Assembly: GCF_020567375.1 (NCBI RefSeq)
Contig: NZ_JAJBZM010000001.1
Location: 789,935-853,934 of the forward strand
Direction of reading: 5' to 3'
DNA length: 64,000 bases
Source: Janibacter melonis
GTDB lineage: Bacteria; Actinomycetota; Actinomycetes; Actinomycetales; Dermatophilaceae
Shown here: positions 43,630 through 55,942 of the stretch, in pieces
How the letters are laid out: every line of letters starts with the position of its first letter
Numbering within the stretch: position 1 is the stretch's first letter
Notes under the pieces: model-generated
Databases searched by the model: none
What the model was told of the DNA's origin: nothing
The model's input: only the letters and a program-made list of their open reading frames with translations
Program-made: the position numbers and the translations under genes

Positions 43630-45216
43630 TCAGCGGACGGGGACTTCCCCGCGCATGAGCCCGAAGGTGATGCCGTCGAGCAGCGCCTGCCAGGACGCCT
43701 CGACGATGTTCGCGGCGACGCCGATGGTCGTCCACGACGTCGTGCCGTCGCTCGTCTCGATGAGCACACGGGTGACCGCGTCGGTGCCGTGAGCGGCGTC
43801 GAGGATGCGCACCCGGTAGTCGATGAGCTCGAGCTGCTCGATCTCGGGGTACACGACGACGAGCGCCTGGCGCAGCGCCTCGTCGAGCGCGTTGACGGGC
43901 CCGTTGCCCTCGCCGGTCGCGACGATCCGCCGCCCCCCGGCGTGCACCTTGACCGTCGCCTCGGACAGCGCCTCGACGTCGGCACCACGCACGTCGGTGA
44001 TCGCGCGCCACGACTCGACCTGCGCGTACTGCGTCGGCCCGGCCCCCACCTCGCGGCGCAGCAGCAGCTCGAAGCTCGCGTCCGCCGCGTCGAAGGTGTA
44101 CCCGCGCTGCTCCAGCGTCTTGACCCGCGCCAGCACGCGCGCGAGCGTCTCGTCCTCCCCGTCGAGGTCGACGCCGATCTCCCGGCTCTTCAGCTCGACG
44201 GTCGCCCGTCCGGCCATGTCGGAGACGAGCATCCTCATGTCGTTGCCGACGGCCTTGGGCTCGATGTGCTGGTAGAGGTCGGGGTCGACCTTGATCGCGC
44301 TCGCGTGCAGCCCCGCCTTGTGCGCGAAGGCTCCCGCCCCGACGTAGGGCTGCCGCGAGAAGGGCGGGTGGTTCGTCACCTCGCTGATGGCGTGCGCGAT
44401 GCGCGTGGCGTCCTGGAGCCGGTAGGGCTCGACGAGGTCCATGCCGAGCTTGAGCTGGAGGTTCGCGACGACGGTGACGAGGTCGGCGTTGCCGGTGCGC
44501 TCGCCGTAGCCGTTGACGGTGCCCTGCACGTGCGTCGCGCCGGCCTCGACCGCCGCCATCGTGTTCGCGACCGCGCACCCGGTGTCGTTGTGGCAGTGGA
44601 TGCCCAGACGTGCCCCCGTGCTGGCGATGACGTCGGCGACGGCGTCGTGCACCTGGCCCGGCAGCATCCCGCCGTTCGTGTCGCACAGCGCGACGACCTC
44701 GGCCCCGGCGTCGGACGCGGCGCGCACGCAGGCGAGCGCGTACTCGCGGTCGAGCAGGTACCCGTCGAAGAAGTGCTCGGTGTCGACCATGACCGTGCGG
44801 CCCTGCGCGACGAGGTGGCTCACCGTGTCGGTGATCATCGCGAGGTTCTCCTCGCGCGTCGTGCGCAGCGCCCGCTCGACATGGCCGACGTGCGATTTCG
44901 CGACGAGGGTGATGACGGGGGCGCCGGAGTCGAGCAGGCCCTGCACCTGCGGGTCGCTCGCGGCGGACCCCCCGGCCTTGCGGGTCGACCCGAAGGCGGC
45001 GAGCGTCGCGGTGCGCAGGTCGAGCTCGGTCGCGGCCCGGGCGAAGAACTCGGTGTCGGTCGGGTTGGCCCCGGGCCATCCCCCTTCGACATGGGTGACG
45101 CCGAGGTCGTCGAGGTGCCGCGCGATGACGAGCTTGTCCGCGACCGAGAGGTTGATCCCCTCCTGCTGGGCGCCGTCGCGCATCGTCGTGTCGTAGACGT
45201 GGAAGTCGGTGCTCAT
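43630..45216 (-). CDS. cimA: (R)-citramalate synthase
   Basis: A 528-residue DRE-TIM protein. It begins VYDTTMRDGAQQEGINLSV and has GGWPGANPTDTEFF, CDTNGGMLP, HCHNDTGCAVANT and a LeuA-dimer regulatory domain at the C terminus. The N-terminal pattern is the citramalate synthase subfamily rather than 2-isopropylmalate synthase. It condenses pyruvate and acetyl-CoA, giving 2-oxobutyrate for isoleucine through LeuCD and LeuB. A leader peptide with attenuator lies upstream (45349-45439). ilvE, leuB and ilvD lie upstream on the same strand. The ATG follows GAGGACAG. Confidence 0.93.
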   Translation of the reverse strand: MSTDFHVYDTTMRDGAQQEGINLSVADKLVIARHLDDLGVTHVEGGWPGANPTDTEFFARAATELDLRTATLAAFGSTRKAGGSAASDPQVQGLLDSGAPVITLVAKSHVGHVERALRTTREENLAMITDTVSHLVAQGRTVMVDTEHFFDGYLLDREYALACVRAASDAGAEVVALCDTNGGMLPGQVHDAVADVIASTGARLGIHCHNDTGCAVANTMAAVEAGATHVQGTVNGYGERTGNADLVTVVANLQLKLGMDLVEPYRLQDATRIAHAISEVTNHPPFSRQPYVGAGAFAHKAGLHASAIKVDPDLYQHIEPKAVGNDMRMLVSDMAGRATVELKSREIGVDLDGEDETLARVLARVKTLEQRGYTFDAADASFELLLRREVGAGPTQYAQVESWRAITDVRGADVEALSEATVKVHAGGRRIVATGEGNGPVNALDEALRQALVVVYPEIEQLELIDYRVRILDAAHGTDAVTRVLIETSDGTTSWTTIGVAANIVEASWQALLDGITFGLMRGEVPVR

Positions 45217-45348
45217 CTGTCCTCGGTCCGTCGGCGCCCGGGGATGGGCGAAGGGGGTGATCCCGCTCGTCGCGCCGGGTCCTGGCCGGGGGTGTGGCCT
45301 GGTCCTGGTCGCCGTCTCGGGGACTCCCCTGCTCCGCCCGAGACACGC

Positions 45349-45400
45349 AAAAGACCCCCCGGGTGCGGGAGGTCTGCGCGACGAGCGGGGCTCGTCGCGC
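45349..45400 (-). promoter_or_regulatory. Attenuator of cimA: hairpin plus intrinsic terminator
   Basis: In transcript order, a perfect 11-bp hairpin GCGCGACGAGC (45400-45376, 3-nt loop) begins right after the leader stop codon. Next is a 10-bp hairpin AGACCTCCCG with CGGGGGGTCT (45375-45352), one G-U pair and a CACC loop. It ends in TTTT (45352-45349). Confidence 0.75.
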
Positions 45401-45439
45401 CTAGGTAATAAGTCGGACCGCGGTGGCGGTCGTCGTCAT
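45401..45439 (-). CDS. cimA leader peptide
   Basis: The 12-residue peptide MTTTATAVRLIT ends with TAG. The codons before the stop are GTC CGA CTT ATT ACC. CTT and ATT are rare in this GC-rich genome, so ribosomes should slow when Leu-, Ile- or Val-tRNA is uncharged. The stop codon abuts the first attenuator hairpin. An in-frame ATG at 45448 would add MPE. The region is isolated from the HAD gene by a terminator at 45528, so the cimA transcript starts between. I found no convincing promoter. Confidence 0.7.
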   Translation of the reverse strand: MTTTATAVRLIT

Positions 45440-45527
45440 CTCGGGCATCACCCCAACACCATGGCACCACCACGCCGACGGCGCGCGCCGGGGTCCGCAT
45501 CGTGGGCACGTGTTGGCAGGCTAGGAC

Positions 45528-45551
45528 GCTGCCCCGTGCGTACGGGGCAGC
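45528..45551 (-). terminator. Terminator of the HAD gene
   Basis: A 10-bp perfect stem, GCTGCCCCGT with its complement, has a GCGT loop and lies 33 nt past the HAD stop. It separates ilvE-HAD transcription from cimA. Confidence 0.65.
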
Positions 45552-45584: not shown

Positions 45585-46382
45585 TCAGCGCAGAAGCCGC
45601 TCGAGGGTGGCGGCCACGCCGTCGTCGTCGTTGCTCGCGACGCTCTCGTCGGCGAGCGCGGCGACCGCGGGGTGCGCGTTCGCCACGGCGAAGGCCCGTC
45701 CGGCGAAGCGCAGCATCGGCAGGTCGTTCGGCATGTCGCCGAAGGCCCACACGTCATGGGCGTCGATCTCGAGCTCGGCGCACCACGCCTTGAGCGCGCT
45801 CGCCTTCGTCACCCCGGGGGCGGACATCTCGGCGAGCCCGCCCGCTCCCGAGTAGCTGAGGACGAGCCGGTCGGCGACGACCTCACCGGCCGCGACGAGG
45901 AACTCGTCGTCGGTGAGGTGCGGGTTGCGGGCGAGCAGCTTGCCCGCGCGCTCGTCGCCGAGCTCCTCGATGCGGTGGGTGCACACGAGGTCCTCGGGGT
46001 GGTCGTGGATCGCGGCGAACATCCGCTCGGCCGCCAGACCCCCGGCCCGCTCCGCCGCGAAGCCCGTGCCCGGCAGCTCGCGCCGCAGGTCGGCGACGAC
46101 CTCGGCGAGCAGCTCGGGCTCGATCGTGCGCTCGGCGAAGACCCGCTGCTCGGCGACGTCGTAGCGGAAGGCGCCGTTGCCGCACACCGCGATCCCCCGC
46201 ACGCCGACGACGTGGGCGAGCTCGTCGAGCCACCGGGGCGGACGGGCGGTGACGAGCACGGTCTCGACTCCCGCCGCGGCCACCGCCCGCAGCGCCCGGA
46301 CGGAGCGGTCGGAGACCGTCCCGTCCGAGCGCAGCAGGGTCCCGTCGAGGTCGGTGGCGACGAGGCGGGGTCGGTGGGTCAC
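45585..46382 (-). CDS. Cof-type HAD-superfamily phosphatase
   Basis: A 265-residue protein with HAD motif I VATDLDGTLLRSD, motif II VTARPP, a lysine in TKASALKAW, and motifs III/IV in AFGDMPNDLPML. The cap domain is of the Cof (C2B) type. Such enzymes dephosphorylate sugar phosphates, nucleotides or cofactors, and the substrate is unknown. It follows ilvE by 25 nt on the same strand and is likely co-transcribed. The GTG start 46382 gives the usual short lead before motif I. Confidence 0.88.
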   Translation of the reverse strand: MTHRPRLVATDLDGTLLRSDGTVSDRSVRALRAVAAAGVETVLVTARPPRWLDELAHVVGVRGIAVCGNGAFRYDVAEQRVFAERTIEPELLAEVVADLRRELPGTGFAAERAGGLAAERMFAAIHDHPEDLVCTHRIEELGDERAGKLLARNPHLTDDEFLVAAGEVVADRLVLSYSGAGGLAEMSAPGVTKASALKAWCAELEIDAHDVWAFGDMPNDLPMLRFAGRAFAVANAHPAVAALADESVASNDDDGVAATLERLLR

Positions 46383-54037: not shown

Positions 54038-55942
54038 TCACGCGTCCTGGTCGGCGGCGGCGGTCTGGCTGCTGTGGTCGGCGTCGGTCGACTGCTCGAC
54101 GGCGTCGGAGTCCTCGCGGTCCCACTGGGGCGCGGCGTCGCGGGCGATCTGGATCGCGTCGTTGCTCACCCCGGCGGGCACCATCGGCCACACCATCGCG
54201 TCGCGCTCGACGACGAAGTCGACGACGACCGGGCGGTCGTTGATCGCCATCGCCTGGCGGATCGTCTCCTCGACGTCCTCCGGGCGCTCGCAGCGCAGCC
54301 CGACGCAGCCGTAGGCGTCGGCGAGCTTGACGAAGTCGGGCACCCGGCTGCCGACCGAGGTGTGCAGGTCGGTGTTGGAGTAGCGCTTGTCGTAGAAGAG
54401 CGACTGCCACTGCCGGACCATGCCCAGACTCGAGTTGTTGATGATCGCGACCTTGATCGGGATGTCGTTGATGACGCAGGTCGCGAGCTCCTGGTTGGTC
54501 ATCTGGAAGCAGCCGTCGCCGTCGATCGCCCACACGACGCGGTCGGGCTGGCCGACCTTCGCGCCCATGGCCGCCGGCACGGAGTAGCCCATCGTCCCGG
54601 CGCCGCCGGAGTTGAGCCAGCTGCCGGGGCGCTCGTAGTCGATGAACTGAGCGGCCCACATCTGGTGCTGGCCCACGCCCGCGGCGTAGACGGCCTCGGG
54701 GCCGGCGATGCGCCCGATCGTCTCGATGACGAGCTGGGGGGCGAGGGCGCCCGGGTCCTCGCTCGGGGTGTAGCCGACCGGGTAGCTGCGCGCCCAGCCC
54801 TGGGTGCGGCGCACCCAGCCCGACAGGTCGGGGCGGGGGGCCTCGGAGGCGGCGACGGCGGCGGTGAGCTCGGCGATGATCGCCTTCGCGTCACCGACGA
54901 TCGGCACGTCGGCGATCCGGTTCTTGCCGATCTCGGCCGGGTCGATGTCGGCGTGGATGACCTTCGCGTCCGGGGCGAAGGAGCTCAGCTGGCCGGTGAC
55001 CCGGTCGTCGAAGCGGGCGCCGAGGGTGATGAGCAGGTCGGCGCGCTGGAGCGCGGTCACCGCGGCGACCGACCCGTGCATGCCCGGCATGCCGAGGTGC
55101 AGCGGGTGCTGGTCGGGGAAGGCGCCGCGCGCCATGAGGGTCGTGACGACGGGGATGCCGGTCGCCTCGACGAGCGCGGCGAGCTCCTCGTGGGCCCCGG
55201 CGCGGATGACGCCGCCGCCGACGTAGAGCACGGGCTGGCGGCTGGCCGCGATGAGCTTGGCCGCCTCGCGGATCTGCTTCGCGTGCGGCTTGGTCACCGG
55301 GTGGTAGCCGGGCAGGTCGACCTGCGGGGGCCAGGCGAAGGTGGTGCGGGCCTGCAGGGCGTCCTTGGCGATGTCGACGAGGACCGGGCCGGGTCGGCCG
55401 GTGCTCGCGACGTGGAAGGCCTCGGCGATGACGCGCGGGATCTCCGCGGCGTCGGTCACGAGGTAGTTGTGCTTGGTGATCGGCATGGTGATGCCGCGGA
55501 TGTCGGCCTCCTGGAAGGCGTCCGTCCCGATCGCGGCCGAGGCCACCTGACCGGTGATGGCGACCATCGGCACGGAGTCCATGTAGGCGTCGGCGATGGC
55601 CGTGACGAGGTTCGTCGCGCCCGGGCCGGAGGTGGCCATGCACACGCCGACCTTGCCGGTCGCGGTGGCGTAGCCCTCGGCGGCGTGGCCGGCGCCCTGC
55701 TCGTGGCGCACGAGGATGTGGCGGACCTTCACCGAGTCCATGAGCGGGTCGTAGGCCGGGAGGATCGCACCGCCGGGGATGCCGAAGACGACCTCCGCAC
55801 CGACCGACTCGAGCGAGAGCACGAGGCTCTGGGCGCCCGTCACCGGGACGGGGGCAGGGGGGTGCGCGGCCTGCGCCTGACGAGCGATGCTCGCCGGGCT
55901 GGGTGCAGGCGGCGTCGACGACTGGGTCGCGCTGTCGCTCAC
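54038..55942 (-). CDS. ilvB: Acetolactate synthase large (catalytic) subunit
   Basis: A 634-residue ThDP enzyme. [16 protein letters not shown] leads to the catalytic Glu in [15 protein letters not shown]. The ThDP motif is [14 protein letters not shown]...INN. It makes acetolactate and acetohydroxybutyrate, the first common step of Val, Leu and Ile synthesis. GTG 55942 is chosen, with GGAG 7 nt upstream. A leader peptide, a hairpin and an intrinsic terminator occupy 55991-56091 upstream, so attenuation by charged branched-chain tRNAs is likely. Confidence 0.97.

Follow-up and report, generated by a model that had tools for sequence, protein, structure and literature searches.

A probable isoleucine-responsive leader-peptide attenuator of the citramalate synthase gene cimA in Janibacter melonis and other Actinobacteria

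In the 64,000-nucleotide stretch of Janibacter melonis DNA analysed here (the window), cimA is separated from an upstream HAD-type phosphatase gene on the minus strand by a region that includes a leader of about 100 nt (Table 1). The short open reading frame in this leader ends in CTT ATT ACC TAG (45412-45401), and directly 3′ of the TAG lies the first base of a perfect hairpin, P1, GCGCGACGAGC-CCC-GCTCGTCGCGC (45400-45376). P1 is abutted by an intrinsic terminator, T, AGACCTCCCG-CACC-CGGGGGGTCT (45375-45352), which has 10 pairs including one G-U and is followed by TTT. The original prediction for this DNA had described a short frame with this ending, an 11-bp hairpin beginning at the next base and then a 10-bp terminator, and all of these are present. 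Its 12-codon frame from an ATG at 45439 is in the correct phase, but the start itself probably lies further upstream, at GTG 45451 or ATG 45448. It had also placed an independent terminator at 45528. A 10-bp hairpin does exist at 45551-45528 on the minus strand, 3′ of the phosphatase gene, but it has no U-tract, and perhaps it is a U-less terminator.

Table 1. Features of the cimA leader region and of the ilvB leader in the window
Feature	Coordinates	Strand	Remarks
HAD-type phosphatase gene, upstream neighbour, same direction	45585-46382	-	ends at 45585
NdgR/LtbR-like palindrome GCCCACGATGCGGAC, putative second control layer at the promoter	45493..45507	-	NdgR motif with two departures
-10-like hexamer CATGGT, with TGC in front (extended -10 form)	45458..45463	-	family's TGnCAnnnT form
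Leader ORF, probably 16 codons from GTG 45451 (MMPEMTTTATAVRLIT)	45401..45451	-	ending conserved in relatives
Control codons: Leu CTT at 45412-45410, Ile ATT at 45409-45407	45407..45412	-	Ile-Ile in relatives
Leader stop codon TAG	45403-45401	-	
Hairpin P1 (11 perfect pairs around a loop of 3 nt), putative antiterminator	45376..45400	-	covariation; fixed distance to Ile codons
Intrinsic terminator T (stem at 45375-45352, U-tract at 45351-45349), abuts P1	45349..45375	-	covariation
P1 5′ arm copied (GCGCGACGAGCGGG) beyond the terminator, potential pairing partner of the P1 3′ arm in read-through RNA	45262..45275	-	
cimA, citramalate synthase, regulated gene	43630..45216	-	TIGR00977, 632.5 bits against a cut-off of 450
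Attenuator layout of the window's own ilvB, upstream of ilvB (match 54209-55840)	56091-55997	-	

Folding of the RNA from 45451 to 45349 gave -51.8 kcal/mol, versus -34.03 kcal/mol (sd 3.26) in 200 dinucleotide shuffles (z -5.45), none of which folded as well as the native RNA. When the whole genome of the same organism was searched with a model of the family, the cimA leader was the single strong match (E 3e-22), and two more matches appeared at E 3.35 and 8.38. Identity with a known Rfam RNA was rejected, as only two tRNAs exceeded their thresholds in the window. The best sub-threshold Rfam match overlapping the element was 6C, at 20.2 bits of 47, and six relatives gave only sX13, at 29.4 of 50 over an ilvB element, and Glutamine-II, at 25.8 of 33 and unrelated.

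We sought cimA in 38 whole genomes of relatives and found the element upstream of 22 of 25 full-length orthologues (L001-L025); in L018, L023 and L025, which lack it, cimA lies directly 3′ of ilvE. Among named cimA loci, 77 of the best 80 of 576 carry the element upstream on the coding strand, the exceptions being L190, which follows ilvE by eye, L230 and L234. In 24 genomes of the window's family, all 17 with cimA match the covariance model at E 8.1e-16 or better, and none of the seven without cimA has a strong match: G004 gives E 2.2e-6 (an ilvB leader, L066), G010 gives 0.014, four have no match, and G007 has none among the matches listed. At wider scales the covariance model R1 finds matches in 137 of 186 genomes and 47 of 53 genera of the family (E 0.1), in 129 of 297 order-level and 228 of 394 class-level genomes (both at E 0.001), and in 56 of 396 genomes sampled from the phylum (E 1e-5), with filters that are stricter at the wider ranks and counts that pool cimA, ilvB and leuS elements. 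Even at E 10, R1 misses the ilvB element of the window itself, so the ilvB counts are lower bounds.

Both hairpins covary. RNAalifold recovered P1 and T from an alignment of 22 relatives that had not been fitted to the model (A1), with double changes in 10 of 19 pairs. Alignment A2, which was fitted to the model, comprises 86 matches (85 cimA, 1 ilvB; 82 distinct rows). Standard pairs fill 98.7% of its cells, compared with at most 64.4% when the partners are slid as a control; double changes occur in 12 of 19 pairs (195 cells), and 0 of 500 shuffles reach any of five measures. The four outermost P1 pairs, GCGC with GCGC, are invariant in A2, and the P1 loop is not conserved among the loci that we dissected. 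These were 123 loci (86 plus a further 37), a non-random set made up of the best-scoring and of picked remote examples among several hundred matches. By tblastn, the DNA behind them encodes cimA at 107 loci, ilvB at 11, leuS at 4 and none of these at one (L077). The leader counts below refer to 105 of the 107 cimA leaders, representing 92 distinct 33-mers; L131 and L137 were omitted, and both match the model.

The leaders end in isoleucine codons. In the 105 cimA leaders the terminal Ile run has two codons in 77, three in 24, four in 1 and one in 3, and is thus at least two codons long in 102; the typical ending is Ile-Ile(-x)-stop. ATT accounts for 118 of the 233 Ile-run codons, versus 0 of 112 Ile codons in six long genes of the window, where CTT is likewise used for 1 of 306 Leu codons, in keeping with the original claim that both codons are rare. 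Valine is unfixed across relatives, and leucine, where found, precedes the Ile run. That prediction had named leucine, isoleucine and valine codons as the controlling ones; isoleucine holds up, since Ile-Ile is conserved, but the Leu CTT and the Val GTC are not conserved. As judged from the leaders compared, the conserved signal is isoleucine, with leucine and valine not required, and the citramalate route leads to isoleucine, which fits Ile as the general signal.

The window's own leader, with a lone Ile codon, belongs to the group of three. Its counterpart in G002, from the same genus, ends in CTG ATC ATT ACC TAG, and the window's copy, CGA CTT ATT ACC TAG, is a degenerate Leu-Ile version in which the rare Leu codon CTT occupies the position of the first Ile. 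Since the first Ile codon has become CTT in this species, leucine shortage may count too, and leucine may also be sensed here. The stronger form of this idea, in which charging of tRNAs for Leu, Ile and Val is sensed jointly through CTT, ATT and GTC, draws on the window's GTC CGA CTT ATT ACC TAG and on the rarity and placement of CTT; we consider it improbable as a general account, given that Ile-Ile is the fixed feature and that the pathway is that of isoleucine.

The distance between the Ile codons and P1 is also fixed. In 87 of 105 leaders the last Ile codon starts 8 nt before P1, and the first codon of the run commonly starts 11 nt (64 leaders) or 14 nt (24 leaders) before it. The stop codon usually begins at -2 (81/105), so that its G is base 1 of P1. 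In seven distinct leaders the stop has shifted 7-13 nt into P1, yet the last Ile codon of each of them keeps its distance of exactly 8 nt to P1, which argues that selection keeps the Ile-to-P1 distance and not the Ile-to-stop distance. The usual footprint of a ribosome reaches 11-13 nt past the first base of the A-site codon. With this footprint, a ribosome on the first Ile codon of a pair would end at about the foot of P1, and a ribosome at the stop would cover the P1 5′ arm. With a centred 26-nt footprint (PMC13236596), simple arithmetic has a ribosome on an Ile codon 11 nt before P1 covering about 3 nt of P1.

Comparison across genomes shows, before cimA, a short leader ORF whose Ile codons keep a constant spacing to P1, a covarying P1 and an abutting, covarying T; on this basis the putative attenuator is conserved across many Actinobacteria. 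The original prediction had proposed that relatives be compared for hairpin covariation and codon conservation. Both hairpins covary and the Ile codons are kept, the opposite of the lack of conservation that it had named as a refutation, and its central claim, leader-peptide attenuation of cimA, is strongly supported by the covarying hairpins and conserved control codons.

The 5′ end of the leader has a characteristic form of its own. Two in-frame starts follow the hexamer CATGGT, GTG 45451 at 6 nt and ATG 45448 at 9 nt, giving 16 or 15 codons, and a Shine-Dalgarno sequence is apparently absent. In 103 of 105 cimA leaders an in-frame start codon, GTG in 69 and ATG in 34, is preceded at 4-9 nt by a hexamer of the form xAxxxT, and in 96 of 105 the spacing is 6 or 7 nt, with surroundings TGnCAnnnTG; start codon and -10 box were picked jointly, which favours a match. 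The TG ahead of the hexamer was outside the selection criteria, and its T is found in 89 and its G in 91 of the 103. We infer that the leader peptide is probably leaderless, with transcription beginning at its start codon. Leaderless leader peptides have been reported in Streptomyces (PMC8079986) and in Corynebacterium (PMC11857589).

Could the hairpins serve only to terminate the phosphatase transcript, or make up a riboswitch or small RNA, with the ORF present by chance? The upstream gene does run in the same direction and ends at 45585. Set against this are the conserved Ile codons, a -10-like box belonging to the leader start itself, the association with cimA, the lack of any Rfam family at threshold and an unconserved P1 loop, and we regard such an explanation as far-fetched.

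A second layer of control may operate at the promoter. The NdgR motif derived from S. coelicolor ChIP-seq is [GT]T[CT]CAC[CA][CTA][TC][GC][TC]GGAC (PMC4340878). GTCC-N7-GGAC, with no more than one mismatch allowed, is present upstream of 51 of 107 cimA loci, versus 13 of 107 coding controls and 279 of 2140 mononucleotide shuffles. In the window's family the site mostly lies about 100 nt before P1; elsewhere its position scatters. This NdgR/LtbR-like candidate site may add control of initiation.

P1 and T share no base. The linker between them is 0 nt in 89 of 105 loci, 1 nt in 13, 2 nt in 2 and -3 nt in one; the last is an artefact of L022, where P1 was extended by weak pairs, giving linker -3, stop +2 and last Ile 4, and inspection by eye gives 0, -2 and 8. 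When the leaders, each taken from a start codon to T, were folded without a ribosome, P1 and T both formed in 105/105, and the same was found when the RNA was masked up to P1, as for a ribosome at Ile. When 10 nt of P1 were masked too, as for a ribosome at the stop, P1 formed in 0/105 and T in 105/105. Since P1 and T co-fold with or without a ribosome on the Ile codons, folding energies alone provide no switch.

A base-paired antiterminator was therefore rejected, as P1 and T have no base in common and fold together in all 105 leaders. Extension of P1 into T by flanking bases is impossible in 99 of 105 cimA elements (A is opposite A in 70), and extension of T into P1 is impossible in 104 of 105; nor is there a boundary triplet common to antiterminator and terminator, the linker being 0-1 nt in 102/105. 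A pseudoknot between the P1 loop, which is C-rich in some loci, and T was rejected by eye, as the loops vary and that of the window has 3 nt. These results weigh against the idea of a classical attenuator with an overlooked base-paired antiterminator, for example a transient exchange of a few bases by the two hairpins, like that of C. glutamicum ilvBNC. The nearest studied case does have a GCC triplet in both hairpins (PMC11857589), and a one-pair extension of P1 into T is possible in 6 of 105 cimA and 4 of 11 ilvB elements. Nonetheless, the extensions fail in nearly all cimA elements, and in leaders of possibly only about 24 nt (L011, L024) the ribosome leaves no other RNA to pair, so we give this idea little credence.

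In keeping with the original statement that no clear antiterminator pairing could be identified, we found no competition for bases; what that statement missed is that P1 itself is the most likely antiterminator. We consider this assignment probable because of the fixed distance between P1 and the Ile codons. In the mechanism that we propose, the RNA would begin at the leader start codon and a ribosome would load on the leaderless RNA. With ample Ile-tRNA, the ribosome would clear the Ile codons, reach the stop and cover or melt the P1 5′ arm; with that arm covered, T would close and the transcript would end near 45349. With scarce Ile-tRNA, the ribosome would stall on the Ile codons, reaching just to the foot of P1; P1 would then form, T would fail, and RNA polymerase would continue into cimA.

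How would P1 block a terminator with which it shares no base? A steric block is proposed because the two have no common base. The foot of T must sit at the upstream edge of the RNA-DNA hybrid, and since the linker measures only 0-1 nt, the foot of P1 would need the same spot at that edge. Steric exclusion is our tentative choice of means, held with some doubt. In another reading, P1 would be a pause or timing hairpin that holds RNA polymerase for the ribosome, and ribosome-polymerase contact would decide the fate of T. The co-folding of P1 and T, their lack of a common base and the start of P1 at or beside the stop codon would all suit a pause hairpin, and hairpin H1 of C. glutamicum ilvBNC has been proposed to be one (PMC11857589). 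Pausing would leave unexplained, however, why the Ile-P1 distance is kept when the stop moves and why the linker is 0-1 nt, and we think it unlikely.

The same layout of P1 and T is found at other genes of branched-chain amino acid metabolism and charging. Leaders at ilvB end in branched-chain codons, most commonly as ...RILVLx-stop, and those at leuS end in ...LLLx-stop. A like layout was seen by eye at 14 more loci, 12 from outside the class and 2 from within it, where tblastn assigned the gene behind as ilvB in 7, cimA in 5 and leuS in 1, at 38% identity, and gave no assignment for L236; L243, counted as cimA, has only 27% identity and is perhaps leuA. In the window itself, the ilvB leader starts at GTG 56091 and continues GCC ATC ACC CTC GTA CTT CAC CGG CGC GCT GCC TGA, with its stop within P1. 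P1 (56065-56029) and T (56027-55997) are separated by one base, the start codon is 6 nt after GACAGT, with TTTGACA farther upstream, and an NdgR-like sequence, GTCCACGATGTGGTC, lies at 56158-56144. Attenuation of leuS in the window's own genome (L152) was considered and rejected, as no Leu run, P1 or T could be seen by eye.

These observations support an attenuator of cimA along several lines: the element before cimA, its covariation, the Ile runs, the ruler-like spacing between Ile codons and P1, the 0-1 nt linker, the masking result, and the like layout at ilvB with Leu/Ile/Val codons and at leuS with Leu codons. Two features of the broad class are present as well, namely a short ORF carrying control codons for the amino acid that the pathway makes and a conserved intrinsic terminator before the gene. 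Counting against are the co-folding of P1 and T, the roughly 3 nt of P1 that the centred 26-nt footprint would already cover, the single Ile codon of the window's leader and the cimA loci without the element (3/25 and 3/80). Two published results also count against. Changing the leader start codon of C. glutamicum ilvBNC lowered expression by 80% (PMC11857589), where a bare two-hairpin device predicts a rise, and changing the candidate control codons of S. coelicolor ilvB had no effect (PMC1262725). On balance, we hold with high confidence that an attenuator of the ribosome-mediated leader-peptide kind precedes cimA, and an isoleucyl-tRNA-responsive, ribosome-mediated transcription attenuator is, as the full explanation, strongly favoured. 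The leader and its two hairpins very probably switch cimA on at isoleucine shortage. A more general proposal, that cimA, ilvB and leuS share a phylum-wide spatial design in which a no-overlap P1 before the waiting ribosome bars T in the RNA exit channel, is a conjecture that we view with rather more doubt than belief. If it is true, the switch is spatial and not an exchange of base-pairing partners.

In classical trp and his attenuators, base-pairing partners are exchanged. The cimA element resembles them in its control codons and in the proposed stalling and choice made at a terminator, and differs in that no partner exchange was found. A closer relative is the ilvBNC attenuator of Corynebacterium, also named the ilvB-II motif, which has a leader start beside the transcription start, branched-chain codons and an antiterminator before a U-tract terminator (PMC11857589, PMC10272879); the ilvBNC terminator has been proved by mutation (PMC11857589). 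In C. glutamicum ilvBNC, however, a GCC triplet is all that antiterminator and terminator have in common, in what is called a 'fast' attenuator, and there is a third hairpin, H1 (PMC11857589), whereas cimA has zero overlap, two hairpins and Ile-Ile. As described for the ilvB-II motif, P2a bases pair with the P1 loop (PMC10272879). In the published model of M. tuberculosis ilvB1NC, as proposed here, a ribosome at the stop prevents the antiterminator and one at the control codons allows it; in contrast to cimA, its structures are described as mutually exclusive, its codons are LVVI and its gene is ilvB1 (PMC13236596). Streptomyces leuS and ilvB have leaderless peptides whose Leu or Ile/Val/Leu codons precede hairpins and a U stretch (PMC8079986, PMC1262725), and the layout seen at cimA recurs at ilvB and leuS in the window's family. 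The leuA LEU element and the ileS T-boxes (PMC1262725) are, like the cimA element, cases of RNA-level branched-chain control in the same phylum, but LEU has a pseudoknot reaching the Shine-Dalgarno box and no terminator (PMC1262725), and T-boxes bind tRNA; there is no Rfam T-box match in the window.

Of the eight attenuators described in S. lividans none is that of cimA, and neither cimA nor citramalate appears in the main text of that article (PMC8079986). A 2005 survey of RNA regulation in actinobacteria covers trp, cys, ilvB, leuS, leuA and ileS (PMC1262725, as excerpted), and a term search for citramalate and cimA in PMC2965389 and PMC10272879 found neither. In the open-licence PMC papers searched, we found nothing linking cimA or citramalate synthase to leader-peptide attenuation in Actinobacteria. 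We rate as new the gene, cimA, the Ile pair and the zero-overlap layout, and as already known leader-peptide attenuation itself. The element would place citramalate synthase among the isoleucine-controlled enzymes of many Actinobacteria. With its strict spacing the device is very compact, about 100 nt long, apparently with no Shine-Dalgarno sequence and with no antiterminator pairing found. As cimA and ilvB are of interest for branched-chain products, a native isoleucine-fed switch could be useful.

Several further observations concern individual loci. At L152, the leuS locus of the window's genome, there is still a -10-like TACCCT as well as a short ORF with an ATG start, as if a Leu-Leu-Leu attenuator like that of relatives had been lost. 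L077 (G020:C80:29889-29970) is a second good copy of the element, with leader end AAAIID and E 3.3e-18, in a genome that also has the element before cimA; no cimA, ilvB or leuS lies in about 2.9 kb behind it. In L137, L247 and L248, from class-level genomes of 7-9 Mb in genus g153, the cimA leader is a long variant, with an enlarged P1 into which the reading frame runs, as ATT ATG or ATT ATT followed by GGC AGC.

Downstream of the terminator, the copy of the P1 5′ arm listed in Table 1 has counterparts in L002, L003, L013, L004, L088 and L093, and in L003 the copy covaries with P1, the same A-to-T change being present in both. A full 10-of-10 partner to the P1 arm is found at 10 of 99 cimA loci, versus 1.15 expected from dinucleotide shuffles, and the loci with such a downstream partner are mostly from the window's own family.
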